From Apostichopus japonicus (Eukaryota; Echinodermata; Holothuroidea; Aspidochirotida; Stichopodidae): a DNA stretch of 64,000 bases. The notes under the pieces are model-generated. The model was given only the letters and a program-made list of their open reading frames with translations, did no database searches and was not told the DNA's origin. A program made the position numbers and the translations under genes. How positions within the stretch are numbered: position 1 is the first letter of the stretch; every line of letters begins with the position of its first letter. Shown one piece after another: positions 21,830 to 55,616 of this stretch. The DNA lies in contig NC_092583.1 in NCBI RefSeq assembly GCF_037975245.1, forward strand, positions 6,771,264 to 6,835,263. The letters are read 5' to 3'.

Positions 21830-23010
21830 TGCTTTAATATAAAGTCCGCGAGAATCAATCATATTAACCAATGCAGCACCACGTATCCAAGTGACTTTAT
21901 CGTAGACTGCGCCGTGCCATTATGTGCCACTGTTGTAATTTTAGTATTCTAACAATAGTTAAAGGGGAGGGGGTGGATGGAAAAGGGTGACAGTACCGAA
22001 CAAAGGTGTAGCATTTTGTTCCTCTAAATACACCGGATGGAGAAACCATGATGTGCGTCTAAATTGATTAAACCCAAACCATATTATTAATATCAACAGG
22101 AAATATCATTGTATGTAGATTAGAGCTTCCTGATCTTTGAATAAATCAATGATTGAAAACTATCGAGTTTTTATTAGTAAAGTAAAAAGACAAGAAATAT
22201 CGATGGCTGTAAATGTTCTGTTTTTACCGCTATCGCTATAGCTCGATACTTGATTAGGTCAACTGACATTAGAAGATTCGTTATAACAGAGACATACGAA
22301 CATGTTAATATGCATACACAGACATGCAGGTACTATAGGCTATGTTTCAGCCAGACACGAGAGAGTTGAACAGACAGACAGACAGATACACCAAAATCAA
22401 TGGAATCAACCGACAGATCTACAGAAGAACAAACAGTGTACAGACAACCGACTATGAGACTCACGAATCGAGACACAATGACGGACTTACGAAATGACAC
22501 AAGATACAAACATATACTAAACAATACGACGTGTGGTTGTAATAGAAAAAACAAATCTATATAGGAGGAATTTGGACAACATTCATCCATTCATTTACTT
22601 TAATTTTGATTTTGTGCATTACTGTAACCAAAAATACCATCTGGTTTGGGGTTTTAGAGATGATTTTCAATTCGAAGTTTAACGAAGCAATCATTGACAA
22701 ATTCAGGAACCGAGCAAGCAACAATTTCTCTTTAATACAATACAACTTTATAGTATTGGTTGATTTTTTTCTGTTGGATATATGGTTTAAATAGGGCATG
22801 TCGACGTTATACTGTACGTTCATCACACAATTCAAGTCACGGTGTTTTGTAGAAACGTTCACAAGTTTAGAGGTGTTTCATACACTGAATAATATCGGAG
22901 AACGATTTTGGAATACTCCCGTCGCTACATAGAATAATATTGGTCACCCTTTCCTTCCATTTACCCTCTTGGAACCCCCTCTACCCCCCTCACTCTTTAA
23001 CGAAAACTTT

Positions 23011-24929
23011 CTAAGACAAGCGTGGCAAGTTACCACGCCTGTCTGGGACTTCAGATCTGATGCTGAAATCGATCCCATCACTGGCAATACGTTTGAACTT
23101 AAGGCGGCGGCTACGATAGTTTTGAGAGCGCGGTTGTGCGGGAGGGCGTGGCATTGGTCCATTTACAGGCGGCAGAATATTGTTACTTGTGTTGTCTTTA
23201 TTTGCTTGAATTGAAACTGGAGGCAAAACGTCCATCTGATTTGGTGTACTGATGATAGATCTTCGCACACTGGTTCTAGTGGGTGCTACTGGTATGCGTG
23301 GACGATAAGTGTGGCTTAAATTATCCACTGGATTTGTGTTGCCAGTTGATGAAATAAATATCACGTGACTTGTTTCGATTGGTTGGTCACGATATGACGG
23401 CATCGGAGGCGGTCGTGAGGGAAGGAAAGGTAACTTATTCCTTCGCATGGCCTTCAGTGCTTTCCCATTGGTACTGCAGCTGGTGTCGTGTGTAGCAGTT
23501 GATAACTGTAAAAGAGATTTAAAAAAATAACTATGTGATATAACACTTCAGCAATCACAAGGGGGTGTGCATATGACCTGCAAGTCTCTAGTCTTTATAG
23601 TCGGCTTGAACAATATAGGTAACCAATCACGTAATATTCGTCGTATTTCTCCTGTCTAAGAAGACAGATTCTATTATAAATATAATAATAATTATCGAAC
23701 TAGCGCCTCCTGTTAGCATCTTCATAGTAAATCGATAGAGGCTAAATAAAGCTAAACATTAAAAGAAAACATTTAAAGGTTGACTTTAAGCAGAATTTTG
23801 ATCCTGATACTTCATAGTACAAGAACAAAGTAACATTTGAGTGCTAGTAATATTTCCACAGCTGTTTCATTTTTTTCCCTAAATTATTCAGCTCTAAAAT
23901 CTGGCACATGTCTAGACTACTCCTTATGCAAAAAAAAATCATGACGTTGGCCCCTCTGGGCAGTCCTAAATGTTAATTTAATCAATTGTTTTATAAATAA
24001 CAATAACTTCACCAATACATGTTATTTTAACTTCATGTGAACAACAGATCACACTTAGATGACATTCAATACTATATTTGTCCTTAAATTTATAATGTAA
24101 TTGTAAAGGCATGTCATTTGAGGTCATACAACTGTCATATTTCTGAAACATATTTCGTGTGGGGTCTGAGGAACTGATCTAATGGTTCAGTTTGTGTTAG
24201 ATTCAGTGGTCCAGCCACATTAACTGATGATCCTCAGATGTTAGATTGGATATTTCTAAAAACTTGAAATGTGGTGTATGAAGTAGGACCTGTACTGATA
24301 GAGTATTTGTTTTTGATGGCCATAAATATATAAAAATTAATTTTGTGCCTAACGTTGCCATTTAATTCAGTATAGGCGTTAAACTGGATCCGAATATTAA
24401 CATTAGTTTTTGGATATTTTCTAATTTGTCAGTTCGGTAGATCTATATTCACTGATGGCATGAGGTAAAGAAAGGATGGAACATTAAACTACAAGAAGTG
24501 AGATGGTATTCCAAAATGTTTGACGCAACTTACTATTGGCCGTCCACGTGAGTTGTAAGGTCTGCGTCCACAGACACTATTGGTTATTTCTCTGTCCAAT
24601 CTTAGAGGAGAAATGTTCAGCAGGGGTGATTCTACTTCCTGTATGTCTTCTTCAACTACTTCCGGGGCGTGGTCTAAGTCATCGCCCTCCCTGTTGAGCA
24701 AAGACACCACCACTCTGGTTGATGCATGATGCAACCTTGATGCCGTCTACAGGTGAAGGCAGGAGTACAGGTAATGAAAGCCGTGCTGTGATTGGTCTGG
24801 CCTTGTGAGATTGGTCAAGATGATTGGACATCTCATAAATACGTTCCTGACTAATGAGGACTGGAAATCCAGAAAAGCGGTTTCTTGGTTCCATTGGCAG
24901 CTGAATCAATCGATTAGACATTCTCAAGT
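23011..24929 (-). pseudogene. unrecognised Pro/Arg/Ser-rich protein gene, left copy
   Basis: Two coding exons on the minus strand: 24929-24534 (ATG at 24921, start MSNRLIQLPMEPRNRFSGF) and 23515-23011 (stop TAG). They are joined by a GTAAGT/TACAG intron of about 1.0 kb. A noncoding first exon probably ends at the GGTAAGTATTTG donor near 25406. The second exon encodes a basic, proline-rich region (FLPSRPPPMPSYRDQP, then repeated Arg/Ser/Pro/Asn) with no domain I recognise. The first exon hits TGA at 24679-24681 because two single bases present in the right copy are missing. With a net two bases restored the splice phase works, so the gene was intact until recently, or the assembly has errors. 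Confidence 0.6.
23939..24440 (+). repeat. dispersed repeat family 3, copy in left-arm intron
   Basis: Aligns by eye with 31436-31910 and 60926-61330. Each has a TGACGT block, a CATGACATTCAA-like or GATGACATTCAA block, TCATTTGAG/TCATCTGGGG, GAGGAACTG or GAAGAACTG, and GTCCAG/GTCGAGTCAC. It sits in the intron of the left gene copy and is absent from the right copy. Confidence 0.65.
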
Positions 24930-25406
24930 CTGAGAGTTAGAGGAAAAATATGGCAGTGTGAAAAGGAAACGATGTATTAAGTAATAGAAATATTAAAATT
25001 CCTTTCCCAAAATCGAAATTCATTGATTTATATATATATGAGTACACATATTCCTATTAAAACCATGTTGTTTGTGTTGTCGGGTCTGCAAGCAAAAATA
25101 ACGGTACTACGTGTCTTCTTGTAGTGAATAAGATATATTGCACATGAAGAAAAGATATGAGCGGTCAATTCAGATTAGATACTTAATACATTTCACTTCA
25201 GATTAGATACTTAATACATTTCATTTCAGATATTAGAACATAAGTGAAGAAATACTTTATACAGTATTTTCAACTACTCGTAGATTATTAAGAATACTTT
25301 AAGAAAATAAAAAAACTCAACTTTGGTACACCAACAAGTAAACTTATAAAGGAACACCACAGTATACGTGTCAGAGAATAATGCGAAACATTGGCAAATA
25401 CTTACC

Positions 25407-26880
25407 GGTGATTTTTAGTAACTTTTCTGGCAAGTAAGTAAACCTCTAGTCGGCAGTAAACGTTCGCTGTTGCTTGTATGTGTAACAACGTCTCAAAGTG
25501 TACCAGTGCATGATAGTTCTTTGTGACGACATTTTATCGAAAGCGTGCATGCCACGCACATAAGTCGCGTTGATGTAGTTGGCTTTAACCTAACGAGGTG
25601 GGCTTGACGTGTGAAACAGGAATGAGACGCAAAGTATTAACTGCGCGCGTAGTGCACTGAGTGTGCTTGGTTACCGAACATACTCAGTGATATGACAACC
25701 TGGAGTATTAGGTCCATAAATTAATTATAACTGCACTAGACTAGTTAAACATTATGATTATAACGACACTGGGCTAACTAATTAATGTTTATTAGTCATG
25801 GCATTATGTACACCAACAATCTGCCAAAAGGGCATTTGCGTCCATGCGCTAAGGCACTCAGCATGTATACAGCCAGTCCTATATTCGATCGAATTTCACT
25901 TTAATGATCACTTTGAGATTATTGGTTACTAAAATGTCGCTCATTATATTTAAGTTAATGGGGTGAAAGAATGCTGATATATCGCTTGAATTAGGTTCAC
26001 TAACACTTCGCTTTGTGGCGGTTATATATTGCGGTCGACAAAGCGTTATGGTGACTCGAAGTCAGTCGCAAAGGCAATTAATTGGGATGTTCCGGTATGG
26101 TTCTCCATCCATTCTTTCCTAGATCCATATATTTGTTAACAACACTAATTTCCTGCCATTAATTCCAAATTAACATAACAATACTCCTTGTTTTATCCCA
26201 CTGTTCGGTTCCTTACATTATCTGTTCTTCTAAAAACAAACTTTCGGTTGCCACCATATAGAAATACGACAAGGGCAGTTTCACGAAATAAATAGCCAAG
26301 TCAAACGAATACCCACGCATATACGCGCAAGTTGGCTTCTGTATTAAGGATATACGAACACGCTGCAAGCAATCATATTGCCAAAACCGTGCGTGTCGGA
26401 CGCGCGTATTTTGGCTTTATGTGTTTGAGTATAGGTAGTATAGAAGTCATCACTTAAGCGTCTTAGTAAGTAGTAGTAAGTTGAGTCTCGTCTATCCGAC
26501 ATGCTCAGTGATTAAACTCCGCCACGTATCACGATCTTGCGTCTTCGTTGCTATAAACAATCTTTGCTTTGATACACACCTTTCTGTATAGGTCTATTCA
26601 ATGTTGCCATTCCACTGGGTACTTTCTGAAGACGAAAACACGCTTAGTGCATTAAGCGCGCGTTCGCGATTCCTATTTCAATTATCGAACGTTATAGAAA
26701 GGCCCACTGCATCGACGCAACTTATCCGCGCGATGGGCATTCACGCTTCCGATAAAATCGTCACAGATAACTATGTTATACATTGGTGCAGTGAGACCTT
26801 ACTGCACAAACATACGACAGTGTATACTTCTAGTATAACAAGAAGTTGAATAACTTGCAAGAACTTCGTTTAGAAATTTC
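25407..26880. promoter_or_regulatory. putative divergent promoter region between the inverted gene copies
   Basis: The two gene copies point away from each other from this interval. Each outer edge has a GGTAAGTATTTG splice donor (near 25406 on -, 26881 on +), suggesting noncoding first exons starting inside. The innermost 0.9 kb is not obviously symmetrical. No TATA box at a defensible start was chosen. Confidence 0.35.
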
Positions 26881-27337
26881 GGTAAGTATTTGACAATGTA
26901 TCCTATCAATCAGTTGTATGGATAGTATTACAAATAAAATTGGATTTGTTATAGACTAAAACGTGTTTCTCTCTCTCTCCTTAGTTGTTTATGTTAAATT
27001 ATACGGGATGATGTAGGAGACTTTTGAATATATTAAACTGCAACGAGTGTTTCGGTCGTTCATGTCCTAATATCTGTAGTGAAATTACTCACAATATCTA
27101 ATCTGAAGTCACCGCCCATATCTTTATTATTTACAATATATCATATTGACTACCACCTCCATGCAGTCAGACAGTGCGTTATGTTTACTGTTAGATCTGA
27201 CTAAATACCTAGCATGGTTATAATTATAATAATATGTATAGGCCAACACCATTGCTCTATATGGATTGCGATTTTTGAAATGGAATATCTACTTGTTTCT
27301 TTTTTTACATTACCATTATATTTCTTCTAACCGTCAG

Positions 27338-28648
27338 ACTTGAGAATGTCTAATCGATTGATTCAGCTGCCAATGGAACCAAGAAACTGTTTCTCTGGAT
27401 TTCCAGTCCTCATAAGTAAGGACCGTGTTTATGAGATGTCCAATCATCTTGACCAATCACACAAGGCCAGACCAAACACAGCACGGTTTCATTACCTGCA
27501 CTCCTGCCTTCACCTGTAGACGGCATCAGGGTTGCATCATGCATCAACCAGAGTGGTAGTGTCTTCAGCTCAACAGGGAGGGGCGATGACTTAGACCACG
27601 CCCCGGAAGTAGTTGAAGAAGACATACAGGAAGCAGAATCACCCCTGCTGAACATTTCTCCTCTAAGATTAGACAGAGAAATAACTAATAGTGTCTGTGG
27701 ACGCAGACCTTACAACTCACGTGGACGGCCAATAGTAAGTTGCGTCAAATTTTTTGAAAAGCTACTTTTTTACCTAGTGTTCCATCTACTTTTAACCTCG
27801 TTCCTTGTTCGAATTAATACCCCCCTCCCCCACCCTACCCAGTTAACCTAACACGGCATTATTTACATGTGTAATCGCTAAAGTGCAATGTTTAATCTGC
27901 GTTGTTGCAGCTTCTGTGTCAAATTACTATGAATATGATAGGGGAAGCATCGAGCATTATATTTACTATTAGATAGGCTTCTTTGAGAAAAATGTCTTCT
28001 TAATCAGGATACATCAGGATATATCACAATATTAATCACAAAGTACGTGATTGCTTACCTGTATTGTTCAAGCCGATTATAAAGACTAAAGACTTGTAGG
28101 TCATATGAACACCCCTCGTGATTCCTGAAGTGTTATATCACATAGTTATTTTATCTCTTTTACAGTTATCAACTGCTACGCACGACATCAGCTGCAGTAC
28201 CAATGGGAAAGCACCGAAGGCCATGCGAAGGGATAAGTTACCTTTCCTTCCCTCACGACCGCCTCCGATGCCGTCATATCGTGACCAACCAATCGAAACA
28301 AGTCACGTGATATTTATTTCATCAACTGGCAATACAAATCCAGTGGATAATTTAAGCCACACTTATCGTCCACGCATACCAGTAGCACCCACTAGAACCA
28401 GTGTGCGAAGATCTATCATCAGTACACCAAATCAGATGGACGTTTTGCCTGCAACTTCAATTCAAGCAAATAAAGACAATACAAGTAACAATATTCTGCC
28501 GCCTGTAAATGGACCAATGCCACGCCCTCCCGCACAACCGCGCTCTCAAAACTACGTAGCCGCCGTCTTAAGTTCAAACGTATTGCCAGTGATGGGATCG
28601 AGTTCAGTCCCAGACAGGCGTGGTAACATGCCACGCTTGTCTTATTAA
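27338..28648 (+). pseudogene. unrecognised Pro/Arg/Ser-rich protein gene, right copy
   Basis: This is the inverted paralogue of the gene at 23.0-24.9 kb. Exons are 27338-27734 (ATG 27346, MSNRLIQLPMEPRNCFSGF) and 28166-28648 (stop TAA), with a 431-base intron (GTAAGT/TACAG). A noncoding exon ending at the GGTAAGTATTTG near 26881 probably precedes it. The first exon has one base fewer than the left copy near 27485 (CACGGTTTC against CACGGCTTTC) and meets TAG at 27517. Beyond that the original frame resumes: DDLDHAPEVVEEDIQEAESP and RREITNS-like residues to RPYNSRGRPI at the donor. Exon 2 ends PDRRGNMPRLSY. Its C-terminal third is frame-shifted relative to the left copy for about 20 residues. 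Function unknown. Confidence 0.6.
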
Positions 28649-29392
28649 GTTTTCGTTAAAGAGTGAGGGGGGGGGGTAGAGGGGGTTCCAAGAGGGTAAA
28701 TGGAAGGAAAGGGTGACCAATATTATTCTATGTAGCGACGAGAGTATTACAAAATCGTTCCCGATATTAGTCAGTGTATGTAACACCTCTAAACTTGTGA
28801 ACGTTTCTACAAAACACCGTGACTTGAATTGTGTGATGAACGTACAGTCTAACGTCGACATGCCCTATTTAAACCATATAACCAACAGAAAAAAATCAAC
28901 CAATACTATAAGGTTGTATTGTATTAAAGAGAAATTGTTGCTTGCTCGGTTCCTGAATTTGTCAATGATTGCTTCGTTAAACTTCGAATTGAAAATCATC
29001 TCTTAAACCCCAAACCAGATGGTATGGTAAAAACAGACCATTTACAGCCATCGATATTTTTGTCTTAAATTTACCAATAAAAACTCGATAGTTTTCAATC
29101 ATTGATACATTTAAGATCAGGAAGCTCTAATCACATACAATAATATTTCCTGATGATATTAATAATATGGTTTGGGTTTAATCAACTTAGACGTACATCA
29201 TGGTTTCTTCATCCGGTGTAATAAGAGGAACAAAATGCTACACTTTTTTTCGGTGCTGTCACCCTTTTCCATCCATGGATCACCCCTCCGCTCTAACTAT
29301 ACAGTTAGAATACTACAATTAAAACAGTGGCACATCGTGGCACGGCGCAGTCTACGATATAGTCACTGGGATACGAAGTGCATGGTTGCATT

Positions 29393-29394
<2 letters not shown>

Positions 29395-29456
<62 letters not shown>
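29395..29456 (+). repeat. TA microsatellite inside the right arm of the inverted duplication
   Basis: About 31 TA units, absent at the matching place in the left arm (near 21880), so it expanded after the duplication or was lost from the left arm. Confidence 0.95.
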
Positions 29457-29459
<3 letters not shown>

Positions 29460-29490
29460 TGATTCTCGCGGACTTTATATTATAACACAA

Positions 29491-30993
29491 TTATGGTGTT
29501 ATCTTTTGTAATAAATAATTTAAATATAATTAGAGGTAAAATAAATGCATTCAATAAACCTTGAGAAGTTTAAAACTTGATTGGTTTATTAAAGTGAATT
29601 TATGTCGTGTCATTGTGTTTGTTAAATGTTTGTTTGACTTAAAGCACATCTTTTGGTTTAGCTATTGAGTTTCGTGGAATAGGCGTGCGGGAGGGTTAAG
29701 TGCTAGAATGGAAAACACATGCGAAAGAAAATGTTGGCAAAACATTCTAGTATTCACAAGGGCAAGAAAAGTTTGCGAATGATTAAGAACATTTTGAAAT
29801 GCTCAAATTAAAGTACACCATCACCTACATGACTTGTGGAAGGTGTTAACTAGTCGACCATGCAGACGGAATATAACATTAACCAGATCACACCCGTCAA
29901 CAAGTCTGACTAAAGTGCCTAGCTGGGAATTGAAGAAAGTGAATCGGGAAGACTTTGAAGCCGCTCGAGGTTCTGAGTGATATTCGAAATACTCACTTCT
30001 GTGCTAACCGCCGGATGAGAGGGGGATGATTTTTTTAATAGTTATTTGTTGTTGTTGCTGTTTTTATATGCGATTCGCGTTAAAATGAAAGTTATTATGG
30101 CAGATGTTTATATAGGGGACAGTGGGTGTGGCGAATGGGGGAAATCAGTGTGTGGTCACGAGCAGGAGACTATTTGGTAACTCTTTAGTAATCACGTTCG
30201 AATCCGTATAGAAATGTTTCAAAGTGTTTTAAGTCTCTCGATGCTTCCATCTCTTCAGTTCAGTAAAGGGCGAATAGGATCGCATCTTATACACATTTGG
30301 CCAAACACCGGGATGAATACGAGGTCTGGAGTCATATCCACAGACAAACATCTACGGAGCAACTTGCCATTCCTTTCGAATATTTACATGTCAGAAGTTA
30401 TGGTAGACCATATGCCCTTTTCTGAATACCACAAAGTATTTCTTTGCAAATTACATTTCATTTTTGAAATTGCAACCCACATACGTTTGCAAAAATCATT
30501 AAAGGATACACGGTAACTCTTAGCTACCCTTACCAGGGAGGGGGCGAAAGAGGACATGGACAGTGCATTGACATAGTATACCAAAGTGAGCTCAATCATG
30601 GTACAAGCATATCTATTTTAAAAACATCGCTATTTGGAAAATGATTTATCAAAGTTGTTAATATTGGTTACAGAGAATATACATTACATTAAGCAGATCA
30701 CTGTGTGTGTAAATTATTTGGCAATAGGTTAACATTAGTTTCCGCCAACATATGTCTGCCTTCGCCCCTGCTAGCGTAGTTTATTTGTCCTTTTATGTAT
30801 CTTTTTCGTCAGTCATTTCCTTGGACAACTGGTCCATGACAAGTAACACAGATACTGAGGCAACGATAACAAAAATTGACAAGTGCGAGCATAAAAAACA
30901 GGTTCACGCACGATAGAGGCTGTGCACAAATTCTAAACGACTGTTATACCATGGAGCTGCTACTCTAGCAGCTCCCTGGTTATACCCTCAACC
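29491..30993. other. no gene recognised
   Basis: Between the inverted duplication and the repeat at 30994. A 100-residue open frame at 30214-30516 has no recognisable motif. Confidence 0.35.
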
Positions 30994-31910: not shown

Positions 31911-33151
31911 TCTTAAGAATCACTGTTTCCGAAACTACCTACTATCCAGTATGAGAATTTGCTACAACACTGTGGCTTAGAATGGGACCATATTGACACT
32001 TTTGTTTTCTTGCAAAAGTGATATATATATTGAATTCTATGTATATGAACTTTTTATCTCACGGTCTTGCTGGCTTGCATGTCCCTGGCATTGCAACGAA
32101 TATAATGCTTGTTTTGGTGTAGGTAGTGTAAATCTTTGCCAACGCATTTATGTCAAACAATGAGTTTAATAAAGTTCCTGCAAACCCTTGTGAACCGCAC
32201 GACTGTTTGAATGTGTTGCTTGGCTTACCACAAATAACCCATTACAATAAAATTCATTCCACCTTCAGAGTGACTAGAAAAAAAAACGGCTTTTAAGGAA
32301 TTCGATGGCGCTAGTTTTGTTTTTTAATATAAAATAATTATATGGCTCCTAAAAGCATCCGTAGATTCACTTTTAGGAGAATAGCGCCTCATCAGGGTGG
32401 CTGCAAACATGCCGGTCGCAGAGATGTCCCCACCTCTGGCCAAAGGCAAGGATTCACGCACGCCACCTAGTACGCTTCTGGTCGATTTGACCGACCCTCT
32501 GCGCATCCTCCCGGGTTCTTTTGCGACAACAAGGGAGACATGGTACGGGATCCTAGGCCACAAAAAAGCACCATGCCACAGCCAGAGGTATTATCGCCAG
32601 AGGCCTGTCTTGAATCCTAGCCACGATTTACACGACCGACGAGGAATGAGTCTTTCGTCACCCTCTATAACATCGGCCATCACATCAGCTAGTAAATTAT
32701 ATGGTTGAATTAATATATCAAGACTTCAGCGTGGACTGCGGAAAGAGAAAAAGAATTTTTAAACATGTGTAATCATTGTTGGAGTCGAACTCAGTTCATC
32801 AGGTTACCAGTCCACTGCTCTACCATCTGAGCCATTTGACGAGTTAACTTCCTACGAGCTTAAATTAGTATTGTTGGTTGGATACAATCTATTGGTAACA
32901 GTGAACGACACTGCCTTCAACGAAATCTCTATTCATCCTGTTTTACTCTCATTAGAACAACGGATCTGAATATATTTATTAACAAGAAGCTCACGCTTGT
33001 CTTTGTTTACATTGCAGCAAGCAGTAAGAATGTCGCTTCCTTCCAAGACGTAAATGTACAATAGGCTAATGCCCCGATATATCGATGACTTTGAAGCAAG
33101 CAGTAAAAGAAAAACGGATTCCGTGAAATCTTCTTATTCACAAAAGGTTGC
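31911..33151. other. no gene; contains a tRNA-like relic
   Basis: Overlapping open frames on both strands at 32.32-32.71 kb have no recognisable family. The tRNA-like relic lies at 32765-32842. Confidence 0.35.
32765..32842 (-). repeat. tRNA-like relic (Thr-like anticodon loop)
   Basis: The minus strand has intact A box TGGCTCAGATGG and B box AGTTCGACTCC at tRNA spacing, with loop CTGGTAA that would give anticodon GGT (Thr). T stem (CTGAG/CCAAC) and acceptor stem fail to pair, so it is a pseudogene or SINE head. Confidence 0.45.
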
Positions 33152-33716
33152 TTAAAGGTCAAGCGACACGTAAACTTGACTTTGCATAATATTATACTTA
33201 ACAATTCTTACATTAACAAAAACCCAACACCGCGATTTTTTTCCGTCTCCAAAGGGGTAGAAATCGGTAAAAAGTACTATTACGTAATAGATTCAGTGAC
33301 GTCACGGGGGGAGCGCAGAAGAGTGAAAACTGTATATGTTCTGCGCAGTGCATTGGGTATGGAGAAATCTCAAACTTCTCGAAAATATTACCTTTTTCAG
33401 CAGTCTGTTACAAGAAAGTTAAGATTTGGATTAAGATGAAAAATCACAAATTGATACATAAGACATCGAACAAAACATCCATTGACTTCTTTTTTCATAA
33501 ATTCCTTGCATTTTCTTCCTATCAAGCAACAAAAAACTCCGCAAAAATCGGCTAGATTGACTCGTTCAGGGAAAGCCGAAAACAAATGACGTCATTTGTT
33601 TACCAAGTCGAAAGTGAATGATATCGTCGCATACGATATTGCTACCACATAGTTTCTATACACGCACTGTAGTACGCATATATACACAGCACAGCATAGC
33701 TTATACATATCGCGAA

Positions 33717-35527
33717 ATGGCTGCCGGTGGCATTGACACACAGTATTTAGATAGCAACGGCGAAGAAGTAAGGGAAATGGAGGACATGGTGGACGATCGT
33801 GGGGAAGATTTTCCCTATATGTTCGAACCGGAGACCAGCGAAGAGGAAGCGGGATCGGACAGCGATGTCGAAATTGATCGTCTTGACGGAATATAACGGT
33901 AACGTTACGCCAAGTGTACTATACTTTATATAGGATAGTTGTGTCACTAGTTAGGCCTAGAACCGATAAATGTTTCATAACTTTGCTCATACACTTAGCT
34001 AGCCAATTTGTTGATGGGGCAGCAAAATTAACATGAATGTGCGGTCGAGTAAAGTTAAGGAAGTTACTATTTTCCTTAAAAGTTGTGGCAGCACATGCCT
34101 CAGGAACATGTCACACAGACATGTTTCATTTGGTTAGTAGATTGAAGGAGCCAATTGGAAGAGTGCACAACAAATTCAGAGGTGGCCTATTATTAATTTC
34201 CTAGCAGTTGTAGGCCTAGTGGCAAATTAGTGAAGTTACCACAAATCAGGGAAAGGGTGGGGGGGGGGGGAGGGAGAAGGTGGCACCTCACACCAGCTTT
34301 TTGTCATTTCCGCTTGAGCTAATTTCATAACCAGATTTTCTCAATCTAGGGAATGGATTCAGAAGTGGGAAAGAGTTGGAAACGAGGCAATATCGGCCTG
34401 TTTTATTTTCCTTTGCAGCATTGTCCCAACAGAGGCAAGACTTCTAAGAAGAGGCTACCCCTTCCTTACTAGTGATGTTACTTGTAAGGAGCTTCAACAG
34501 TAGATTGCCCTTCAGAGGTGCCCCTTTTCTATTTTGACATGTTAGTACAGTATGCCCCAATAATTGAGGTTGGTATGAAGTCATTGAATTGGCTCTTTAT
34601 TATTTGAACTGGTTTGTATTGTTTACAGGTGTCATTGTGGCCAATGTGCTGTGATGCCTACAGCAAGGGAGTGTAGATGCTGCAGCGAAATAGATAAGGA
34701 CTGTGATGGATGAAGAAGGTGCTGCATGCATCACCTTACACCCAGGTTTTGAAGCTATGTGCCTGAACCCATTGTTTCTTCAGACAGCCTACTACATGTA
34801 CCGTCAACAGTATGGTGGACGTGCACAGGAAAACAGGATCCAAGAGTAAGTATAGAATACATTATCTTTGTTGTATACCTTTATTCATTGCTCTGACCTG
34901 CTGTTGAAAGATGTAACAATACAGAGGGTGTATTCATAGTTAAGTTTTGTTTCGTTGTGAAAGGAATAACATTAAGATATAGATTTGATCAAGAAAATTT
35001 GTGCACCATGTTCAAAACCTGCTTCTGATTAGGTCATTTTGACCAAAAACTGGTGTAATGCCCTTGAGGTTAACCCTTATCATGCTGACTGACATAGTAA
35101 TCATTAACACTGAGCCATGGAACCAAATGCCACAAAAAAATGTCCACCATGCTTGTGCACGATCCATTTACAAGTTTTAGTCCCCGAGATGATGACAATG
35201 ATCAGTTTGTATAAATGGCATAGCTAGGCTTACTTTAGGGGAGGCAGATTTAGGGGCCATGCAAATTCTGGAAATCATATAGAAATTTATTTTAAAATTG
35301 ACGTCCCCAGATGGCTACCAAGCTTTTGTGTGTCTTCATCTTTTATAGCTGGTTTTCATATGATTATTTTACAGGAAATACAGACACAGAGCATACAGAC
35401 AACTTGCACGGATGAGCTAGCAATTTTTAGGGAAGGATATTGTGTTGTTCTCCCATCCTATTCAGTAAGGAGGATTAGAGAAGCTTTACCATCTGAACAG
35501 CATGAAGGATTTAAATTAAGACTGTGA
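33717..35527 (+). pseudogene. P2X7 C-terminal (ballast-domain)-like gene, decayed
   Basis: Three exons are recognisable. Exon 1 starts at ATG 33717: an acidic leader with PYMFEPE and a Glu/Asp/Ser tail, in-frame TAA at 33894-33896. Exon 2 (34629-34845) has the cysteine signature CHCGQC, then MPTAREC and RCC, followed in another frame by DEEGAACITLHPGFE, MCLNPLFLQTAYYMYRQQYG and ENRIQE. Exon 3 (35375-35527) continues KYRHRAYRQLAR and, after a break, VVLPSYSVRRIREALPSE and a TGA. These blocks are those of the zinc-coordinating cysteine domain at the P2X7 receptor C-terminus, which also occurs as standalone proteins in many invertebrates. No P2X channel segment is present. Damage: frameshift before the TGA at 34711, TAG at 35418, another shift near 35435. 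Exon 2-3 splicing is in phase. AATAAA motifs lie about 200 bases past the end. Confidence 0.8.
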
Positions 35528-37275
35528 GAATGTGGACTGTTTATGCCAAGTCATAGTATCATTTCTGCAAAGTTTTATAGAAACAGGGTTCAGTCCTGTC
35601 TGTTTTGTGGCTGAATGGTGAACATTTTGGAATTCCAGCTTATATTTTTCTGGTTCATGGTATTAACTACAATCTTGGATGAAATTTTACATTTTCAAGT
35701 TTGGAAAGTACATAACAGTAATAAATAATAAAAACTCAAGTTAATTTTTTGTATGTATTCTCTCTTGTAAGCAAAGCTGTCACTTCTAGTAGCCTGCCAA
35801 CAAAATCTGGATGGTTGAAACCTCAAATATACTAGGTTAAAATAGAAGAATAGTTTGAATAAAGTACCCTAAACCACTATGTCAATGGGATCTGGAGAGC
35901 TTAGGCTTTCATTTTAATAAAAGTGTAATGAGAATCAATCTGAAATTGTTCATTAATCCATGGAATATCAAGGTTACTTGATCATAAATGGGATAAAAAA
36001 AAATCACATTTTATCCCATGCGGGGAACAGCAAATTTCTGTTAATTCTTTTTGAGAAAAACAAAAAATTGGCAATATGTTTGAAACACCAAAGTTGCATA
36101 CAAATAGTAAGTCAGCATGAAATTTATATTTATGAAGTCTAAGCTCTCTAGAGAGGAATACTTGTCATTGGAACTTTTTTTAAAATATAATGTTATCATT
36201 TAGTTAGTTAGAATGGAAACCAGATGTAACTAAAACTTTAATGTAAACTTTTAGCAACTTCCCTAAAGGCTGGTAGCGACCTGTTAATTAACACTGCTCT
36301 GCAGCTGTGCCAAAACATGTGAACAGACGATTCACAGAGTCGATTGCTCCCCACTACAATGAAACAAAATTAGAAATTGGGAGGCCATCAACTACAGTAC
36401 TTCAGCAAAGCTTTTGAAATCTGCTTCTGTGTTTTTTTATGGCATCCTGTTCGGATGAATATAGGAGCTTGCAAGTGGTGGGGGCTCTTTTCTGACAGGA
36501 ATAGGACACTCCTCTCCCATGGTTCCACTTCTGCAGAAGTTGTTGCAAGCAGTCAAGAAGTTCCCATACATAATCTGTAGAATAGTAAAGATATGAAGAA
36601 TAATATAATAATAGTTCATAAAAACATACCATTTAGATAGAGGCATTCCAATCACTCCATTTCGGTCAATAGGCATGGCACAGTTGTCAGTCAAGTCTTT
36701 GGATGCCCAACTAAGGCGACAGCTGAGTACACCTCAATTGGTGTGGATACATGGGTCAGGTTTAACCTGACAACTTGTGCCTGAACAATTCCAATATATT
36801 TTTTACTGATTACAACAAAAACCCTTCACCTGTTTGTGCACCTAATATTATGGATTATGTAATCTTCAGCAGGATGTGTGGTCATTGTCTCAGTAGCTTA
36901 ACCACTGATTATGTAGTAAAGTAAACATGTGGACAGAGTAACATCCTGTCCCATCCCCTTGTAATCCATGGTAAAAGAGTGTATAAGATGCTACTTTCAC
37001 CATTTGTATTCAGTAGCAGATATCCAGCCAAGTGAAAATATAATATACTCTGTTAAATCCAACTACTTGTTTGTGCCTTTATTTCTTGTTCACACACAGC
37101 TGTGACAACTCTACCAGATACAGTATGTATATGCTAATTGAAGTAAAGACTGATGGCCTCACCACACATTCCAGACTACCCCACTGTGTTGGTGTCAAAA
37201 TTAATAATGATCCTCTTTCCAGAAAGTTATGGCACCAATTAATTTTCCAGACTAGTCTACTATCAATCTTGAAAA

Positions 37276-37509
37276 TTACCTTGAAGCGTCATCTTTGTCA
37301 TGTTCAGATGAGTTAACTGATGGAGTGTAGTCCGGACTACCTGGCGGTTTTTCGGTGTATCCGGATGTGGATGCCACAGCAGCAGACGGACCATCATCGC
37401 CACTGTGAGATGGCCCTGGTTGCTTTGATGGTGTTCTTGTCTCTGTTGGTCCAGTCAGCAACTTCAATGGTGGTAGGGGGACCAGTGAACACTGGACTTC
37501 TACATACAT
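37276..37509 (-). pseudogene. possible transposase linker exon
   Basis: A 77-residue minus-strand open frame rich in Pro, Ser, Gly and Asp, ending SSEHDKDDASR, with a GTAATT donor directly after. It contains SPDYTPSVNSSEHDKD, similar in style to the D-x-[ST]-Y-x-P-S acidic linkers that follow THAP domains in transposases. It lies downstream (minus direction) of the THAP-like exon inside the same element. No catalytic region was recognised. Composition-based and tentative. Confidence 0.25.
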
Positions 37510-38802
37510 GTGTTACATTCACTGAAAATTAGAACAAACGCTTATTATACCACACACATACAGTAGGCTGCTCTTGGACAGGGGTCAGCTGCCTAGATGG
37601 TTCACTTATTTTTTCTGAAGGAGAGCATATCCTCCTGCTTTATGTGGCTGCAAAAATATGGGCCACTCACACCATGAGCATTGCAGATGACTTCAGCTTG
37701 GTTTCATATAGTATAACTACAATGTAATCTCCCTTCTCTCAGTAACTATAGATGTAGCCTTTATATTTTCCTGTGAAGCCATCAGGTATAGCCTCCTCAA
37801 CCACTCTCGTCAGGCAGGCGGATATGATGGATAAAATACAATGTATATTATCCCCTAGTCAGCCTGCCCAATGTGCAGTTTTAATTGCTATTTTGCTTTC
37901 AACGAGTACTGTTTCTAAAATTTTGGCCCCTGTACTCACTTCTGCTATAGAATACTCTATAGATGTATGAAAGTTTTCCATTCTTCCTTGTATTACCCTA
38001 GCTTACACTTCTGTACCACATTTTCTCCCCCCCCCCTCCCCATTCATCACTCTACTAAAACCTATTTATGGGGACCTTTCGGCCGTAATACTGCTGCCTC
38101 CTTTTTGTCTGGTAGCTTGCCCCCCATATACATACCTCGATGTTTTACTGCTGGAGATTCCTTTTATCCCGTTCAAAACTGACTACTTAAATCTTTAATG
38201 CCTGTCACCACCCTCCCCTCCCCCATTTCCCAACTGTTTTTCGGTAATATCAAGCACATGTCTATAAGATCATGCCACCTTTAGATGGAGATGTACATTC
38301 TGCAGAATCCTGCCTTTATTTTCACTGCAGTTGGTTGGGGAACAGCTTCTAGGTTAATCTAAGTATTGAAAATTGGGAAAGAAAATAAGAAGGAAGTTAT
38401 GAAAGTTCATTTAAGAAAGCAGTTTGATATGTTTGAAAGTACCTGTCACAAGCGTTTTCTCTTGTAACAAAAATTGCAGCCCTACCAACAAAAATGGCAA
38501 AATATAAGGATGTCATTTACTGTGAAACATATGAGCTATGACTCTGAGTATATAGATAGGTGGGAGCACATTATAATATTGGGCAAAATGACATGTAAAC
38601 ATCTTATGCTTGTTATTCTGGATTTTTCATGATGTACCACAGATAAAAGTTAATATAGCCCTAGCCTACACCTAACTTTATCGTCGCCGTACCTAATTTA
38701 GGGCCTAACTAACTGAACGAAATTATAAGAATTAGCCTACTGTAAGTTAGTAATAATACCAAGTTAGTCCTTGTTGTAGTAGGCCTAGGCCAGAAAATAC
38801 AC

Positions 38803-38947
38803 TTACTCTTTTCCGATCCAGCTTCGCAACTACTGGTCTACTTGTTTCTATATCTCCTGGAGATTTGAAGATACTTTCTCCAAATAGAGAAGGAACGGCA
38901 TTGTCTTGTAGACGGCGATTCGCTCGAAGGTCCAAGCCAATCTGTAC
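38803..38947 (-). pseudogene. THAP-domain-like exon fragment
   Basis: The minus strand encodes LRANRRLQDNAVPSLFGE, resembling the conserved end of THAP zinc-finger domains (basic residues, then A-V-P-[ST]-[IL]-F). The frame runs on to KLDRK and reaches a GTAAGT donor at about 38802. The zinc-binding Cys/His part of THAP was not found upstream, so this is a fragment or a split domain whose first exon I missed. It lies inside the TTAA-bounded element and antisense to the P2X7-tail-like gene, which suits a transposase exon. Identification rests on one short motif. Confidence 0.4.
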
Positions 38948-39314
38948 TTAGGCAGCTACAGTAGGCTGGCTGAGTGCACTGGTACTAAGCTATCGCTGTA
39001 TACAGTGTTTGACGAGCACGAAACTTTCTTGTACTGTTGTGCACCCATTCTCATCTGATATTTTGTTTACTGTCCGTGACGTATTGTTTACGGCTTTGAT
39101 CTCGGTTAGCATATTAGGCATATCTAGCTTTGGTAACATTGGCGGTTCCCCCCGTGACGTCATTATCTTACGGAATTAGCTTGGTTATTAACTTAATTAA
39201 AACAGCAAAGAAACAATTGTGGAACTCCAAATTTGGAATATAGGGTTTTGATATGTAGCTTTTCAATTTGTGTAAGTTTGAAGGAAATCTGTTACGTGTC
39301 ACTTGACCTTTAAG

Positions 39315-40512
39315 ATTATGCTCGCAAGAGAGGTCTTGCTGTAAGTTGTGTTCTTTTACAACTATATTCTATGCAGACGATCATGAACTGGAGTAAGCCT
39401 GAAATTTCAACAAACAATTCCTATTCACATTTCAGTACCGTTTTGAACGAGGAAGGAACAATGCTTATTAAGTCAAACACGTTAACTTCATGTGACTAAT
39501 CTTATTTAGGGATCTGAATGGCTGGAATTAGCACGGTTATTCGAAACCCGAAACAGGATTCATAGGGCTTTGAGTTTATGCAAGTATAGACTTGGGAAAC
39601 ACGGGGATCGGGAATTCGCCAACTACAAGACTTTGTTTAGTCCGCGGTGACTTGATGTGCTTATTGATCCTCTGAAACTGCGGTAGCTTGCGTGGATAGG
39701 CCCCCCCCCCCGCCCCAAATGACTGTGTTCCACACATATACAGAAGTGTGTATTTAGCTTAATACAAAATATTAGAATCATCTTTATAAATATCAATTTT
39801 GATCTATTAGCAGCCAACTTGATCACGTCGTTTACAATTGTTGCATTTTGAAAGACTGAATGGTAATGAGGAAGGGACGGTGACGAGGACGGGGTTTGGA
39901 TGTTTTTATAGCTTTTATATGTTCAATACAAGTCAACACTATGACATGGTCGACTCCATCAACAGCTATAATCACTCATATAAAACATAAGTTATAGGAG
40001 GCAATAGCATCCCTTTCATGGTCATGGCTACCCTCCCTTCACCGCCGCCCCTCCTTCCCATACCATTTGCCGGTACGTTACTGAACCATGAACTATAGAT
40101 CTCTATGACAATGAAATATAATTTGCATAAGTTTCCGATGACCAGAATAAACACAAAGTTTCCTCCTTCTTCTGCTGATTCGAAAAGAGGTATTTGCATC
40201 GACTCTCATATAGACTATGGGTTTGAAAATTAATCCAAAACGCATCCAGAACTCTGCTTTACTTTCACTTCATCACCTGACCAAAGTTATTCATGCAACT
40301 TATTTAATCTTGAAAAAACATCATGTTACAAAGTATTCTTTGAGCTGTTGTAAGTCTGAATCAAAAAGAAGGAATAAACCAAGGAGAACATGTGAACTAT
40401 AGAAACATTCTTTGCATTTCCTTTCAAGTCATTGTAAGATTAGAGATTACGTTGATCCAAGAATTATACTCCATGAAATGGGAGGAATGCTAAAAGGGAA
40501 ATCGTTCTTGTA
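39315..40512. other. no gene recognised
   Basis: AT-rich flank of the TTAA-bounded element up to the MITE at 40521; one C run near 39702. Confidence 0.35.
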
Positions 40513-42801: not shown

Positions 42802-43969
42802 CCTAAACGCTTCTGATCCCTTTTGATCATCACGATGTTGCGTCAAAGTAGCACAAAGCTACAGTGCACTTGACGCATCATGTTGACATTTGTTTCATCT
42901 CTGTGCTACCGCGTTGTTTTTCGCTCTCATAACTATTGTTCAACACATTTTCCGTGATCTGATGAAAAAAACGGCACAGAAAGGAAACTGGTTCGATCTT
43001 TCAGTTACCCTAAAACCTACTTGCTGTGAAACGACTTCAACCTCATTTAATTTCTGTGGACGTAAACTTGGTAAATTAGTATAAACATGGCCATATTTTG
43101 TTTTCTATATTTTGATTTGAAAACTTCACTAATATACTATATATTTTATATTGGTACCATTTTTGCGAAACTTACTCAAATATTAAGCCGAAGGCTACCG
43201 TACAGTACTTGTGCGGTCATATTATATATATTTAATAAAAAGATAACATTGTATAAAGTAAAATTTTGGGGTTTTCCACCTCACTTCTGCAATAATATAG
43301 GATAAATGAATGTAATTGTCGCTGCTGAACAATGGCATCTAGGCCTAAGCAATTTCTGCAACATCTTCATATTCCTATTGCAGGTACAAACCTGATTATA
43401 TAAAAATCAACCATATAAAGCTAAGTGTTTCTGCAATACAGGTGTACTAAGATGAAGCTGATCATTTACCTACATTATACATATTCCCAATCAAACAGTA
43501 TCCAAGCCAAACAATATCATCAAGATGCAACCTGTGCATTGAGTGAGAATCAGAAAGTTCTTAGAGCTCATAATCATGTATTGCCACTATTGGTATACAT
43601 TTTTCAAAACTCAATTTGGCAAAAACCATGGCAGTCAATTCACCTTTCAACTATTTCACAGGAATGGGTGGCATCGTTACCTTCTTACCAGGTTGCCTCG
43701 TCATTTTGGCAATACTCATCTAAACTGAGAAGGTTTGAGCCAAATTGATCCATGAACACCTCAACTCAGTGTCCATATATCTATATTGTATTCTTTGTAA
43801 TCTCTGCACCATTTACAACAAAGCGTGACCTTTTGCTCTAGACATTTGGTATTTTAATATATTAAATATTTAATATTTAGCTTCAGTAATCAGTATCCAT
43901 AACAATGTTTGGAATCATGATTGAGTCATCCACAATTAGAATATAATTTTTATTTTTTATTTTGAACAG
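42802..43969 (+). other. upstream side of CWC25; first exon not found
   Basis: Should be intron or promoter of CWC25. No frame with the family's N-terminal block was found; several short open frames have no family resemblance. Confidence 0.35.
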
Positions 43970-46900
43970 TACATTGAAAACGATGGATTGGATGTACAAG
44001 GCTAACGATAAAGGTGTCAACTCAGAGGACTACCTTTTAGGCAAGGAGGTAGATTCAGCCATCTTAGATGCACAGAAAGAAGAGCAACTTGAAGAACAGG
44101 TTGGTTCAAGCACATGCAAAAAAGAGATTTATTGTTGTTTTCTCATGCGAGCCATTAAACTTGAATCGAACATGAAAAAGTACTTAAGAATCTTTCAACT
44201 TTCAAATAATTATATGTTCTGTATGACATTGAATTGTTTAGTTGTACCAAGGTTATTTTGTATGAGGATTATAGTTTAGTTTAGAGACCCAAGGATCAGG
44301 AAGCCTTACAGTAGCTTATCTGAGACCCTATCCGTGTTAGATCAAGGATGAACACCGGCTTATTTCAAGCCTTCTCTTTTCGATAAGTGTTCAGAGGATC
44401 ACGAGGCAGGGGTGTGAATTCGCTCCCATTCCTGCTCCCGGGACTGCCATTTAACGTCCCAATCCGGTGGACGAGAGTGTATACCCCAGCATCTGACCAC
44501 TTTCTCAAATACTGAGGTAGGCAAAGGCCCCCCATTCGACATCACTGCAGTGCAGCCATGACGAACAAAATTGTTTCGAAACCAAGTGAAGAACAGAAAC
44601 AAACCCCTTTTCCCAAGTATAGTACTACTGTCAATTGTACAGATAGCAGCTGCTGAAGCTATTGTACATGATCTTTCACGTATACTGTGGTTTCTTTAAC
44701 ATTGCTTCACCATTGTCACAGCCCATAACACCACCAATATCCACCTGCAAGTCACTTATTTTGCAATGCTGTAACACTGCATGGTTTGAGCTTTGAGTCA
44801 GTTGACAATCCAGGTAAAAAGTTATAATGATTTTTGATTTGTTCTTTACCTGTTTGGAAGAATATTCCATATGAGAACAAAAAGTGAATCGCTCCTTAAG
44901 CAACAAGTAAAATATCAAATAACAGCTTAAAACAGAACCAGATATGCTCACTTAAAGCTGCATTGATGTGTTTTCTTTGACAGGGTTCCTCTGCTACAGT
45001 AGACATGGCCAACAAGATTAGAGAAGATCCTTTGTTTGCAATTAAGTGAGTATATATTTTTTTTCTGTTCCTCTTTCTCCTTGAAAGAACAGGACACATA
45101 TGGTTAGCATTGTGTTTGGTATCATTATTATTATTTTCTGTACAAGTGAGAAGTACAGTGTAGAGGTGGTGTTGGTAAACATCCAAAAGTCAAAAGTAAT
45201 CACAGAGCAGCTGTTTGTTACACTTTTTGGTTTAAGAAATTTGTAACTTCTTAACACATTTCCTGCATTACTTTTCTTGCATTAAAAGAGAACCTCCTTT
45301 TCACAATTTTTCATCCTCTCTCCGTGGTCCATATTTTTTTGTCTGGCACTTCTCAGTCTCCTTTCTGCCAAACCATTCGAACAATCTAACATTTGTCACA
45401 TACGTAGTTAAAAGGTTACTTACCTGTGATCCCTAGTTGATCACTAGAGGTATATATACAATTTTGTTTGTAGTTATAAGATCTTGAAACATTTTCCCAA
45501 CTAGCACATAGAGTTTGATACACAATGTCATTGTACCATTGATCATGTAAACAGTGTAGATCCAAGCATGAAGACCCACTGGAGAAGTCATTATCAATTC
45601 AACCAAAGTGAGCAAACCTTATTAGAACTTTTGCAGTTTTTCTTGAGGAAACCTAGGCCTTTGTACTTGGTTATCTAAAGAGCAAACTATCTTGTGCATA
45701 GGGTTGTACATGAAGTGGTTGTGCCACATGGAAGCTCATGGTACTTCCATGCACCCAAATAAAGATTAAACATATTGAACTATTATCTCTCTGTTTGTTA
45801 TCATTTTCACAGGCAAAAGGAAGCCAACAAGAGGAAAGCTCTGCTTGAGAATCCAATCCGACTAAAACAATTGCAACATATGGTGAGACTGATGTTTTGT
45901 TTTGTCGAAATACTGCTGGGTGTTAATCAATAGAACTGTCCGTAGAGCACTTTGAAATTATGTGATTATTGTTATTGTCATCAAAAAATCACTTTTCAGT
46001 TGTCATTGTTAAACTTTTGGTATTTTCCAATGGCCGACACTACTGTTTGATGCCATATTGGTGTGCTTACTAGCGTCTTCTGTGTATTGGCTTTTAGATA
46101 CACATATTTAGGTAGAAGACATAGGAAACACAAAAATCAAATAAATGATTAAATATTAACCGTTTATCTGTGGATTTATTTGTTGAAATGATTGACAGAA
46201 TAGTTTAGAATAGTCCTGTAACTCATCTCCATACATCAGCTCATTCTCCTTCATAAAAGTAATTACTGTACTAATCCTTTCAGTATGTTGGCGCTGATGT
46301 TATGCGGTTGTTATGTGATTCTTAATATAATATTAATTAATAACAAGCTTAATGTACATCATTAATATAGAGCTTCAGTTGCCCTCAGTATGGGAACTTT
46401 TCACAAAACATTGATTATTCTTTTAGTATTTGTCATTAATTTGTCATTTGTTATTTGTCATTAACAAGTTATTAGCGGTCTGGCAACATACAGTATTTTG
46501 TCGATTAGAATGTGACTTGTAATGTGTTTGTAATGCTACTTGTTTATACGAGTTAATACTCTTTCCTGCTCTTGTATGTAAGGCTTTGCTGTGCAAACCA
46601 ATGGATGCTATATTTAATTCATCAAATCAGCTGGCTTAAAACTCAAATTACAAGACAGATTGACTTCTGCATGCAGGTTGACTAGTCTATTGTTGTCACA
46701 ATTCCAGATATAATTTTTTCCAACAGGTTGTAATAACCATAAAATACCTGTTATAGAAATGACAAATTTTCCGCCATTGTACATAGGCAAAGTAAATCAA
46801 GCCAAGCGTTTATAAGTTATGAAATTATTGCTAATCATTTCACTTGTTTGAAATGTACCAAACTTATGTAAAACTAAATTCTATAACAATTTATATTTAA

Positions 46901-47027
46901 ATATCTGAGTATTTGGGTAGCACAGCAGTTTTGTCTTGTACTATGTTTACTGTTTTTTGCCTGTCGCACTGTTTGTGTCACTGCGCCAAGAGCATCTTTT
47001 TTGACCGATACCGGCGCATTATAAATG

Positions 47028-47074
<47 letters not shown>

Positions 47075-50000
47075 GTAGTGTAATCTTTGAAATATTTGGC
47101 AAAATGAAATTATCAAGAAACTGAAAGAAAGATTGTTTTTTTTTTTACAGCTTCAGTCTCAGGTAGGTGCAAAATCAAAGAAATCAAAGAAAAAAGAAAA
47201 GAAAAGTAAAAGAGAGAAGAAGAGACATAAGAAGTCCAGACACGAATCGAGTGACAGCAGCGAAGATTCAGACGATGACCTTGATGCTAAACTGATGGAA
47301 AAACTCAAAAGTCAAGCTCTCAAGGGTCGAGAATCGGAAGTTCAAGCTGCCTTGAAGGATTCACGATATGGATTGATCGTGAGTCTCATGCCCTTGTGTG
47401 TAGTTAGTTTTTGTACAATTACCTGGCATTATATGTGCAGTTTTGTCTTTGTTTCTTTCCTTAAGTTTGTTGTTCGTTGCTCAAATGAAACGGGGATGTA
47501 ATCGTTGGTTAGAACATGGTATGCACAGTAACGTGGCTTCTGGCTGGCACCCTGCCAAGAAAAGGTTTATAGAGGGATTAGTATTAACAAGTGTGTGGTC
47601 TAGTGTACTCTGTGAGTGTACCTAGTCCATTCCCCCAAAATTATTTAAGCCAACACAGTTCAAACATCCTTGTAGTTGATTCTACGTCATTTATCAATAA
47701 TATTTGATGATCTAATCAAAACATAATTCATTAGCTTTACTAGCCAAGTTTCATATGAAAGTTATGAATTTAAAATAAAAAAGATTGAAATTATTTAATT
47801 TCCTTTTTTATATGATTAAAGAAATGCTGATTTGAAAGAGTTTCAAGCTGACAAATTGTGCAAATTAAATCAATTTTAATTACTTCATTAGTAATTGCCT
47901 AGCAGTTACAAGCACTGGTGACATGCTTCCATTTAGAAGCAAGTATGGTAAATATTTCGCGACAACCCCACAAGCTTCCTTAAAGGCTAAGCTTGCCCTT
48001 TGTAATTATTGGTCCAATATTTATATCTTCTTTAGGCGGGAAAATCTAAAGCAAAGTCAGATTCTAGAAGACGAGGTGGAAGCGATGATGAGAGAAATGA
48101 GGACACTCCCTTCCAGAGGACTGGACAAGGTGAAGACAGAGATAGACAGAGGCAGGAGTCACATACGGACAGACAAAGAGATGACCACAGGAAAAGAAGG
48201 TACATTGATGAAGACCGGAGCGGTAGGAGGAATGATGATGGTGAGCGACGAAGAGAAAGAGGAGAGGACAGGAGTAGGGGAGAGGACAGGAGTAGGGACA
48301 GAGGAGACGACAGGAGAGGGGACAGAGGAGAGGAGAGGAGTAGCAAAAGGGGAAAGGATAGGAGATATCAGAGGCAGTCTGAGAGGTCAAGAAGCAGGTC
48401 ACCAGCGAGAAAAGAAAAGAAAAAAGCAAGGTACAAACACAAAAACACAATTTTTTCATCAATCTTTAAGCTACAGTTTGGGTTGAATATTTCTCAACTT
48501 GGTACTTTAAGCCCTCCATCATTAGAAGAAAATTATAGGCAAACATAATAGTCTAAACTGCCAGCGCAAATGATAAAACAAGACATATTTCTTCATAGGT
48601 TGGTATCAGATGTACTTTATGGAACACAAAAGTTTCTGTTGTTTATTGAAATGTAAAAACAATTAACTGTTATTAACTTGGCAAGGAGGTGTCATATAGT
48701 GGCAACCACACAGATTTCTCTGTTACTGTGAGAGGTCCCCAAGTATATATGTGTCAATATTTCATGGCTTATCCTGAATTCTACAAATTACAACCAAGTA
48801 CAAGTTGCACCTCTTTAGAAAAGAACATCAAGCAAAGTACATGTGGAAAGATTCAGTCAAAATCAAATGTAAATTGCTCGTGGTTGAAGAGGAAAAACTT
48901 GACATAATTTCTTCTTTTTTTTTCTTCAGAAGAGGAGAATGTAACTTTGTAATTAATAAAGATGAGAGACTGATAAAACAAAATGCAAATCAAATATATT
49001 AAATAGTTATTTTCTTCTGGTAATTTGAGCAATGAATGACCTTCCCCTTTGTCATTACATTCAAAGTGTTCCGTGCATCACTTATTTTAGCTATTACTTC
49101 TCTGTGTAGGTTTGGAAGTATTTACTCCAAATGTTTTGACTTGCACTGCTCAAAATTTTTTACTGAGTTAATATCAGAACCATTTTCTGTTTTCAATTTT
49201 GTTTACTACAATGTTGTTTTTTCTTTTCTGTTCACTCTGATATTGAAATGACAATGGATTAAGTTTTTTTCTTTGTCTTTAGCCAATTGAGTGAAGCCGA
49301 ATTGGAACAAAGAAGAAAGGAAATGATGAACAATGCTGTATGGCGAGATGAACAAAGGAAATCCAGAGTTGAACAGTATAAGGTAATCCTGCCATTCTTT
49401 CTTTCGTAGAGACAAAATACGACTGTATGAAAACGTCTTGATGTTCTTAAATGGCAGAGGTTCAAACAGTAACAATACATTTGAAAAAATGTCTTTGAAA
49501 GTGGCATTTCTTGGTACTTTTTTTTGGCATGGTACAGTATCGAACAAACATATACTCTAGAGGAAATACAGTAAATTCCCTGATATACATTTAGAGTCAT
49601 ATTCATAGAATATGAGAGTGATAATGTTTGAAAGTTACCATGGCACGAAATCATAGATATCACTTACCAATCTCTTTGTCAGTTTTCCTATTAAGATAAA
49701 TAGTATAGTATAACATATAGTAAAGTGTAGTTTAGTATGTAGTATAGTATATTTAGTATTGTAAATAGTATAGAATATAGTATAATATTTAGTATAGTAT
49801 GTAGTATAGTATATAGTATAATAATTTGTACATAGTATTGTTTATAGTATCATATATAGTATAGTGTAGTCTATGGTAGAGTATAAGCTTGCGTTTACAT
49901 CCTGGACCCGAACTACATCTAGAACACTCACCCGTTTAGTGTTAACGGAAAAAAAGGCTTTTTCACGATTGGTATTTTTTGAAAATCTCAATTGCATTCC

Positions 50001-53070: not shown

Positions 53071-53714
53071 CAAGGGCGGCGGAACCGGGGGGGGGGCACA
53101 GGGGGCACGTGCCCCCACTTTTCCTCAGGTTAAAAATGTGCTTTTTTTCTACATAAAAATTGAGGTGCCTCAAGTTAGCAAGAGGCTAGGGAACCAGAAT
53201 GTTCACTCGGGAATGGCCGTTTCCGGCCATCTGAGGGGTTTGTAAAACCAAAAATTTTCTAGTACGCTCCGCGCCAACCGATGGTGGCACTCCGCTCAGA
53301 TAGTCGTGCATACAACTTTGCAAATCCTGGCTAAGCCCGTGACTTTTAATGAATTTCTGTGGGTCAAACTCAATGCTATTTCGAATGGAAAAAATTTGTT
53401 AAGATATTAACAAGAAAAAAACACATTAATCGGAAGATTCCTACATTAGCAACTAGCATGATTTCACCTAATTTTGTCTCAAAAGAAAACTTGTTCCTTG
53501 TTTCCCAATTTGCGCATTGGATATTGCAGTGCTAGTATGCATATTTTCCTTTAGGGGGGGGGGGGGGCGTTGATGGAGTGATGTGTATACACAAATAAGA
53601 TATTACAATAAAGGGTATAAATGTAAGGCTGTATCATTCCAATCGAATTTCTGCAAAGTGCCCTTTGATGTCGGTGCCCAGCCCCCAAGATTAAAAGTGC
53701 TTCCGCCGCCCTTG
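53071..53714. mobile_element. hAT-like MITE nested in the 52668-54279 element
   Basis: Perfect inverted ends CAAGGGCGGCGGAA, flanked by the exact 8-bp repeat ACCTGGAC (53063-53070 and 53715-53722). Same family as 16183-16740 in opposite orientation, with about 90 extra bases near 53570-53640. One core module on the minus strand (about 53208-53303). Confidence 0.88.
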
Positions 53715-54287
53715 ACCTGGACATACCCGATAATGAGTGTATATAAGAAACATTTTCTTTTTCATGGATGGTGGGGGGGGGGTGCCTACAAGCCTAGAAG
53801 TACAGGTTTATCATATTCTTTGTTATATTTTATACTTTTTTTGTGAGACAAATTGCAGTCTCACCCGACACAGCGACATTATCCCGCCTACGTGTCGTTG
53901 AACAATGTATGTTTTTCTGGAGGTAGCTGAGTACTGTGTTAAAATAATAAATAAGGTAACTAAATAGGAGCTTAAAAAATATACTGTCCCATTTTTCCCC
54001 TTCAAAGTGATGTTACCATTTTTTCTTCTTCTTATTTACCCAATTTTTGGGGAAGTGTAAATTTCTAAAACGTGAGATTATAAAATAAAGAATGTTTAGA
54101 TGCAACTTGCAAGGCCTCAGAAGTGCCGTTTCCGGCAATCTGAGAGGCATTGTGTGCCAAAAATTTTCTTGTACGCTACGCGCCAACCGATGGTGGCGCT
54201 CCGCTTAGATAGTGTCACAGGAACTTTCGGGCACAAAAAGTTCTGCCCCCCCAAACTGAAATGGTCCCGTACGCCTATGCACGTGAT

Positions 54288-55533: not shown

Positions 55534-55584
55534 CAAAATGTGGAACGCTTCACGATTGTGCGTGTCATCCTTTCGCAGGGGGCC

Positions 55585-55616
<32 letters not shown>

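Follow-up and report, generated by a model that had tools for sequence, protein, structure and literature searches.

What kind of sequence carries a gene for a domain resembling the C-terminal tail of the ion channel P2X7 in the genome of Apostichopus japonicus, and does the gene belong to the repeat-bounded segment in which it lies? We consider this question for a stretch of 64,000 nucleotides of contig NC_092583.1, referred to below as the window. The most probable answer, to which we assign a probability of roughly 80%, is that positions 33156-39309 are a decayed, non-self-sufficient DNA transposon of the Kol0 type carrying a KolX gene, and this identification rests on one copy. Kol0 is a lineage within the Kolobok superfamily, which reportedly goes back to Kapitonov and Jurka in 2007.

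Ends of the element

The boundaries are formed by the following features, listed with coordinates and strand.

33152..33155, no strand: TTAA, left target-site duplication, read in the sequence
33156..33173, plus: left 18-bp terminal inverted repeat (TIR), starting with AG; sequence comparison, window scan and simulation
33297..33312, plus: left arm of the subterminal inverted repeat, including the TGACGTCA palindrome
39147..39162, minus: right arm of the subterminal inverted repeat
39292..39309, minus: right 18-bp TIR; sequence comparison, window scan and simulation
39310..39313, no strand: TTAA, right target-site duplication, read in the sequence

Without the TTAA copies, the element is 6,154 bp (6.15 kb) long. 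The sequence-only reading had placed TTAA on both sides and inverted 18-bp termini at 33152-39313, and this held: the two TIRs are identical at 17 of 18 positions, with a single-base difference. When up to three mismatches were allowed, the end motif AGGTCAAGYGACACGTAA had two matches in the window, exactly the two TIRs, while the chance level was 0.11 per window on average and none of 100 shuffles had two matches. A search for TTAA-bounded inverted 18-mers (at most 12 kb apart, at most one mismatch) yielded six pairs in the window. Five of these belong to an unrelated palindrome (22-29 kb); the sixth is the pair of element ends. No such pair occurred in 60 windows simulated with a first-order Markov model. 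The combination of TTAA and near-perfect TIRs is beyond chance.

The inner inverted pair proposed earlier is also real, although one arm as originally written was mismatched at its first base; the perfect pair, TGACGTCACGGGGGGA, is 16 bp long (33297-33312 and 39147-39162). With up to three mismatches allowed, its motif occurs twice in the window, compared to 0.09 expected, and one of 100 shuffles also reached two matches within this limit. Beyond the TIRs and the subterminal blocks, an alignment of the left and right ends revealed no clear likeness.

The ends can be compared with those of known elements. Kolobok transposons have TTAA duplications and 5'-RR ends (Kojima and Bao, 2022; PMC9587614, in the sections drawn on here, as for all its statements below). 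The segment has the 4-bp TTAA duplication, and its ends, AG...CT, agree with the 5'-RR...YY-3' rule of Kolobok. In Xenopus, the ten full-length Kolobok copies tabulated in PMC6004289 all have AG ends, and intact TTAA adjoins every end except one side of one copy. The Xenopus elements share with the present one the AG ends adjoining TTAA; their tabulated lengths are 6.8-13.9 kb, as opposed to 6.15 kb here. We also considered KolobokP, whose termini carry long direct repeats (about 450 or 660 bp), and rejected it because the element ends lack long direct repeats: a blastn self-comparison found no repeat pair inside the element.

No second copy of the element was found in the window (blastn, E 1e-4), there were no tandem repeats in 32000-40500, and the end pattern had no matches in viral contigs.

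The window contains other repeats as well. Positions 21793-29522 form a large imperfect inverted repeat, with matching arms at 22634-23633 and 28044-29025 (94.5% identity), 21876-22228 and 29026-29381 (88.6%), and 24509-24970 and 27295-27759 (93.1%). Each arm carries an ORF of 178-179 amino acids (23014-23547, minus strand; 28109-28645, plus strand) with no Pfam match at E up to 0.1. Another repeat, whose core measures about 100 bp, is dispersed over ten sites in both orientations, as seen in blastn self-comparison: 1481-1570, 1915-2008, 2806-2936, 6321-6443, 6671-6774, 16507-16609, 53204-53305, 54082-54213, 57037-57238, and 58254-58356. Self-match ladders mark tandem arrays at 17363-17999 and 5201-5568.

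Genes inside the element

The interior has exon-like stretches on both strands.

33717..33898, plus: probable KolX exon 1, an acidic leader that starts at the ATG at 33717 and contains PYMFEP
34629..34845, plus: KolX exon 2, a cysteine-rich block followed by ACIT...YYMYRQQYGG, with AG/GT borders
35375..35527, plus: KolX exon 3, AYRQLAR...VVLPSYSVRRIREALPS, with an AG border and a TGA end
37280..37499, minus: linker-like sequence of Ser/Pro/acidic character that ends like a splice donor and begins, with some uncertainty, at 37491 or 37499; it may be exon 2 of what is left of a transposase gene
38807..38941, minus: exon-like stretch with AG/GT borders that probably encodes the end of a THAP domain (RRLQDNAVPSLF, with AVPSLF at 38899)

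On the plus strand, the ballast-domain gene is fragmentary and broken as sequenced. Exon 1 has an in-frame stop at 33894-33896, directly before the donor-like site, exon 2 has one internal frameshift, and exon 3 has both an internal in-frame stop and a frameshift. Some of these breaks could be assembly errors. The exon borders resemble splice sites, and by coordinate arithmetic both junctions are in phase, provided exon 1 ends at 33898.

The three exons, joined with X at the breaks, match the Pfam family P2RX7_C over profile positions 74-186 of 192 with 27.8 bits (cut-off 23.5) and E 2.8e-6, an optimistic value, as the frames were hand-picked with P2X7 motifs as a guide. Exons 2 and 3 joined score 24.4 bits (E 3.2e-5), so that exon 1 adds the remainder; exon 3 alone yields 18.7 bits, which is under the cut-off, and neither exon 1 nor exon 2 alone has a Pfam match. 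None of six control versions of exons 2 and 3 (one reversed, five shuffled) matched P2RX7_C. A chance origin of the match in these hand-joined exons seems unlikely, because the score grows with each added exon and the blocks come in order. The initial description of three exons with the blocks of the ballast domain is borne out by the joint match, except that exon 1 is an acidic leader with no cysteines. That description mentioned neither the breaks in the gene nor the THAP-like box on the opposite strand.

Other searches did not recover the domain. The six frames of the element, with X at stops, matched no Pfam family at E up to 1, and none of eight single translated pieces matched Pfam. A PDB sequence search with exons 2 and 3 returned no P2X7 chain, only two chance matches to short neurotoxin chains (E 0.74 and 1.3). 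Therefore, the similarity is reached here by the profile only. In viral contigs, two stretches fitted the peptide pattern, and neither was confirmed as a relative of the joined exons.

On the minus strand, the evidence concerns a possible transposase. The usual motifs of Kolobok transposases include a THAP domain with an AVPTIF box at its end; among the Xenopus elements the exact box is present in 17 of 38 and in 12 of 24, and most of the others have similar residues (PMC6004289, in the part consulted). Kolobok transposases are of the DDD/E type, and an H2CH zinc-finger motif is also usual in them. Across all six frames of the window, the pattern A[VI]P[ST][VIL]F matches only once, inside the element. 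The expectation is 0.07 per 64 kb, or about 0.007 per element, figures that flatter the match, as the box was known before the pattern was composed. The THAP-like exon and the linker-like stretch have no Pfam match, and the zinc-binding first half of a THAP domain was not seen by eye on this strand. The Pfam search of the six X-filled frames (E up to 1) found no DDE catalytic domain, although a decayed core would escape such a search. Judging from these motifs, the minus-strand stretches may be left over from the portion of a transposase gene that encoded the N-terminus.

Outside the element, the window contains an exon at 43947-44276 similar to the splicing factor CWC25 (E 5.3e-7; 30.9 bits, slightly below the Pfam cut-off of 31.4). 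Lysine/serine-rich and arginine/serine-rich ORFs downstream of it, in the region 43947-48545, may be part of the same gene. A U6 spliceosomal RNA lies on the minus strand at 55534-55641 (100.6 bits, whole model covered). A tRNA scan of the window found no tRNA genes.

Probable assignment to Kol0 and the competing explanations

KolX is the second protein of Kolobok elements of the Kol0 lineage; it adopts the ballast fold and is clearly similar to P2X7 residues 476-595 (Kojima and Bao, 2022; PMC9587614). The hand-joined exons, with their P2RX7_C match, correspond to this second protein. The element thus shares with Kol0 the TTAA duplication, the 5'-RR ends, and a second gene of the P2X7 ballast type; it differs in that the catalytic core of the transposase was not found and KolX is broken. 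The Xenopus copies, whose AVPTIF-like box in the THAP domain of the transposase resembles the box seen here, retain long transposase reading frames, unlike the present element (PMC6004289). KolX is not mentioned in that paper. Stand-alone ZCD and Nanor-like proteins and the C-terminus of P2X7 have the P2RX7_C domain in common with the element; the ZCD and Nanor-like genes, however, have been read as host genes in the portion of that work cited here (Rump et al., 2020; PMC7016195), whereas here a broken gene lies inside a transposon.

We infer for this element a former transposase, membership in the Kol0 lineage, and past movement. An intact relative would encode two proteins, a transposase and the ballast-fold KolX, probably in a convergent layout, with KolX on the plus strand from the left end and the transposase on the minus strand from the right end. 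The transposase of such a relative would have recognized the inverted ends, and perhaps the subterminal repeats too, and insertion at TTAA would have left TTAA on either side. KolX would have been carried along as an accessory gene. Both genes would then have decayed, the transposase core being lost or worn past recognition. A self-sufficient active copy was considered and rejected, given the broken KolX frames and the lack of a match to a transposase core.

An alternative is that a non-autonomous TTAA transposon happened to pick up a ballast-domain gene from its host as cargo. The failure to find a transposase core in the X-filled frames would fit this, as would the presence of ballast-domain genes across Metazoa, some of them with linkage conserved from sponges to sea urchin (Rump et al., 2020; PMC7016195, as far as consulted). 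However, KolX is already native to Kol0 elements (PMC9587614) and a THAP-end-like box lies on the opposite strand, and therefore no capture event is needed; we regard chance capture as improbable. The proposal that the domain gene was cargo or part of a Kolobok-like transposon accordingly survives in its second form: TTAA, the AG...CT ends, the P2RX7_C match, and the THAP-end-like box point to a part, and accidental cargo need not apply.

Affiliation with piggyBac is much less probable still. TTAA at both flanks would suit it, and piggyBac relatives of KolX have been described, but 5'-RR ends separate Kolobok from piggyBac and the element starts with AG; moreover, piggyBac proteins reportedly lack most of the seven conserved cysteines (PMC9587614), while a cysteine-rich block is present here, and the X-filled frames gave no Pfam match to a piggyBac transposase. 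Equally hard to credit is a coincidence in which an unrelated ballast pseudogene later entered the interior of an old TTAA element: with a single copy examined it can be entertained, yet the exons lie in order inside the element, with splice-like borders and compatible phases, and fit the known gene content of Kol0 (PMC9587614).

Implications for the P2X7 tail

The sequence-only reading had further suggested that such transposons offered the route by which P2X7 gained its tail. It was right in outline, as P2X7 is reported to descend from a P2X4-like gene that became fused to KolX, and the same study regards Nanor as a probable domesticated form of KolX (Kojima and Bao, 2022; PMC9587614). Given this agreement, there is no need to regard the gene as accidental cargo, nor is the idea itself new: a transposon origin of the P2X7 tail has been in print since 2022, and the element is a plausible new member of the group. 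A search of the open-access literature for P2RX7_C paired with a transposon returned no paper.

Whether the domain passed from host to transposon or the other way is arguable, since stand-alone ballast genes are linked to two markers across invertebrates and, in the sections of the study cited here, show no large expansions (Rump et al., 2020; PMC7016195). In the reverse scenario, an ancient animal ballast gene would have entered a Kolobok ancestor and become KolX, with elements like this one as descendants. We consider this rather unlikely, if less so than any of the alternatives above, and one broken copy cannot settle the direction. If it were true, the tail of P2X7 could come from either source, the host gene or KolX.

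An immune ion channel with a transposon-derived cytoplasmic tail is an important case, yet a published one (PMC9587614). What the locus contributes is a case, read from raw sequence, that agrees with the published view of the P2X7 tail domain as a transposon protein, and the element may add one genome to the known range of Kol0 elements.
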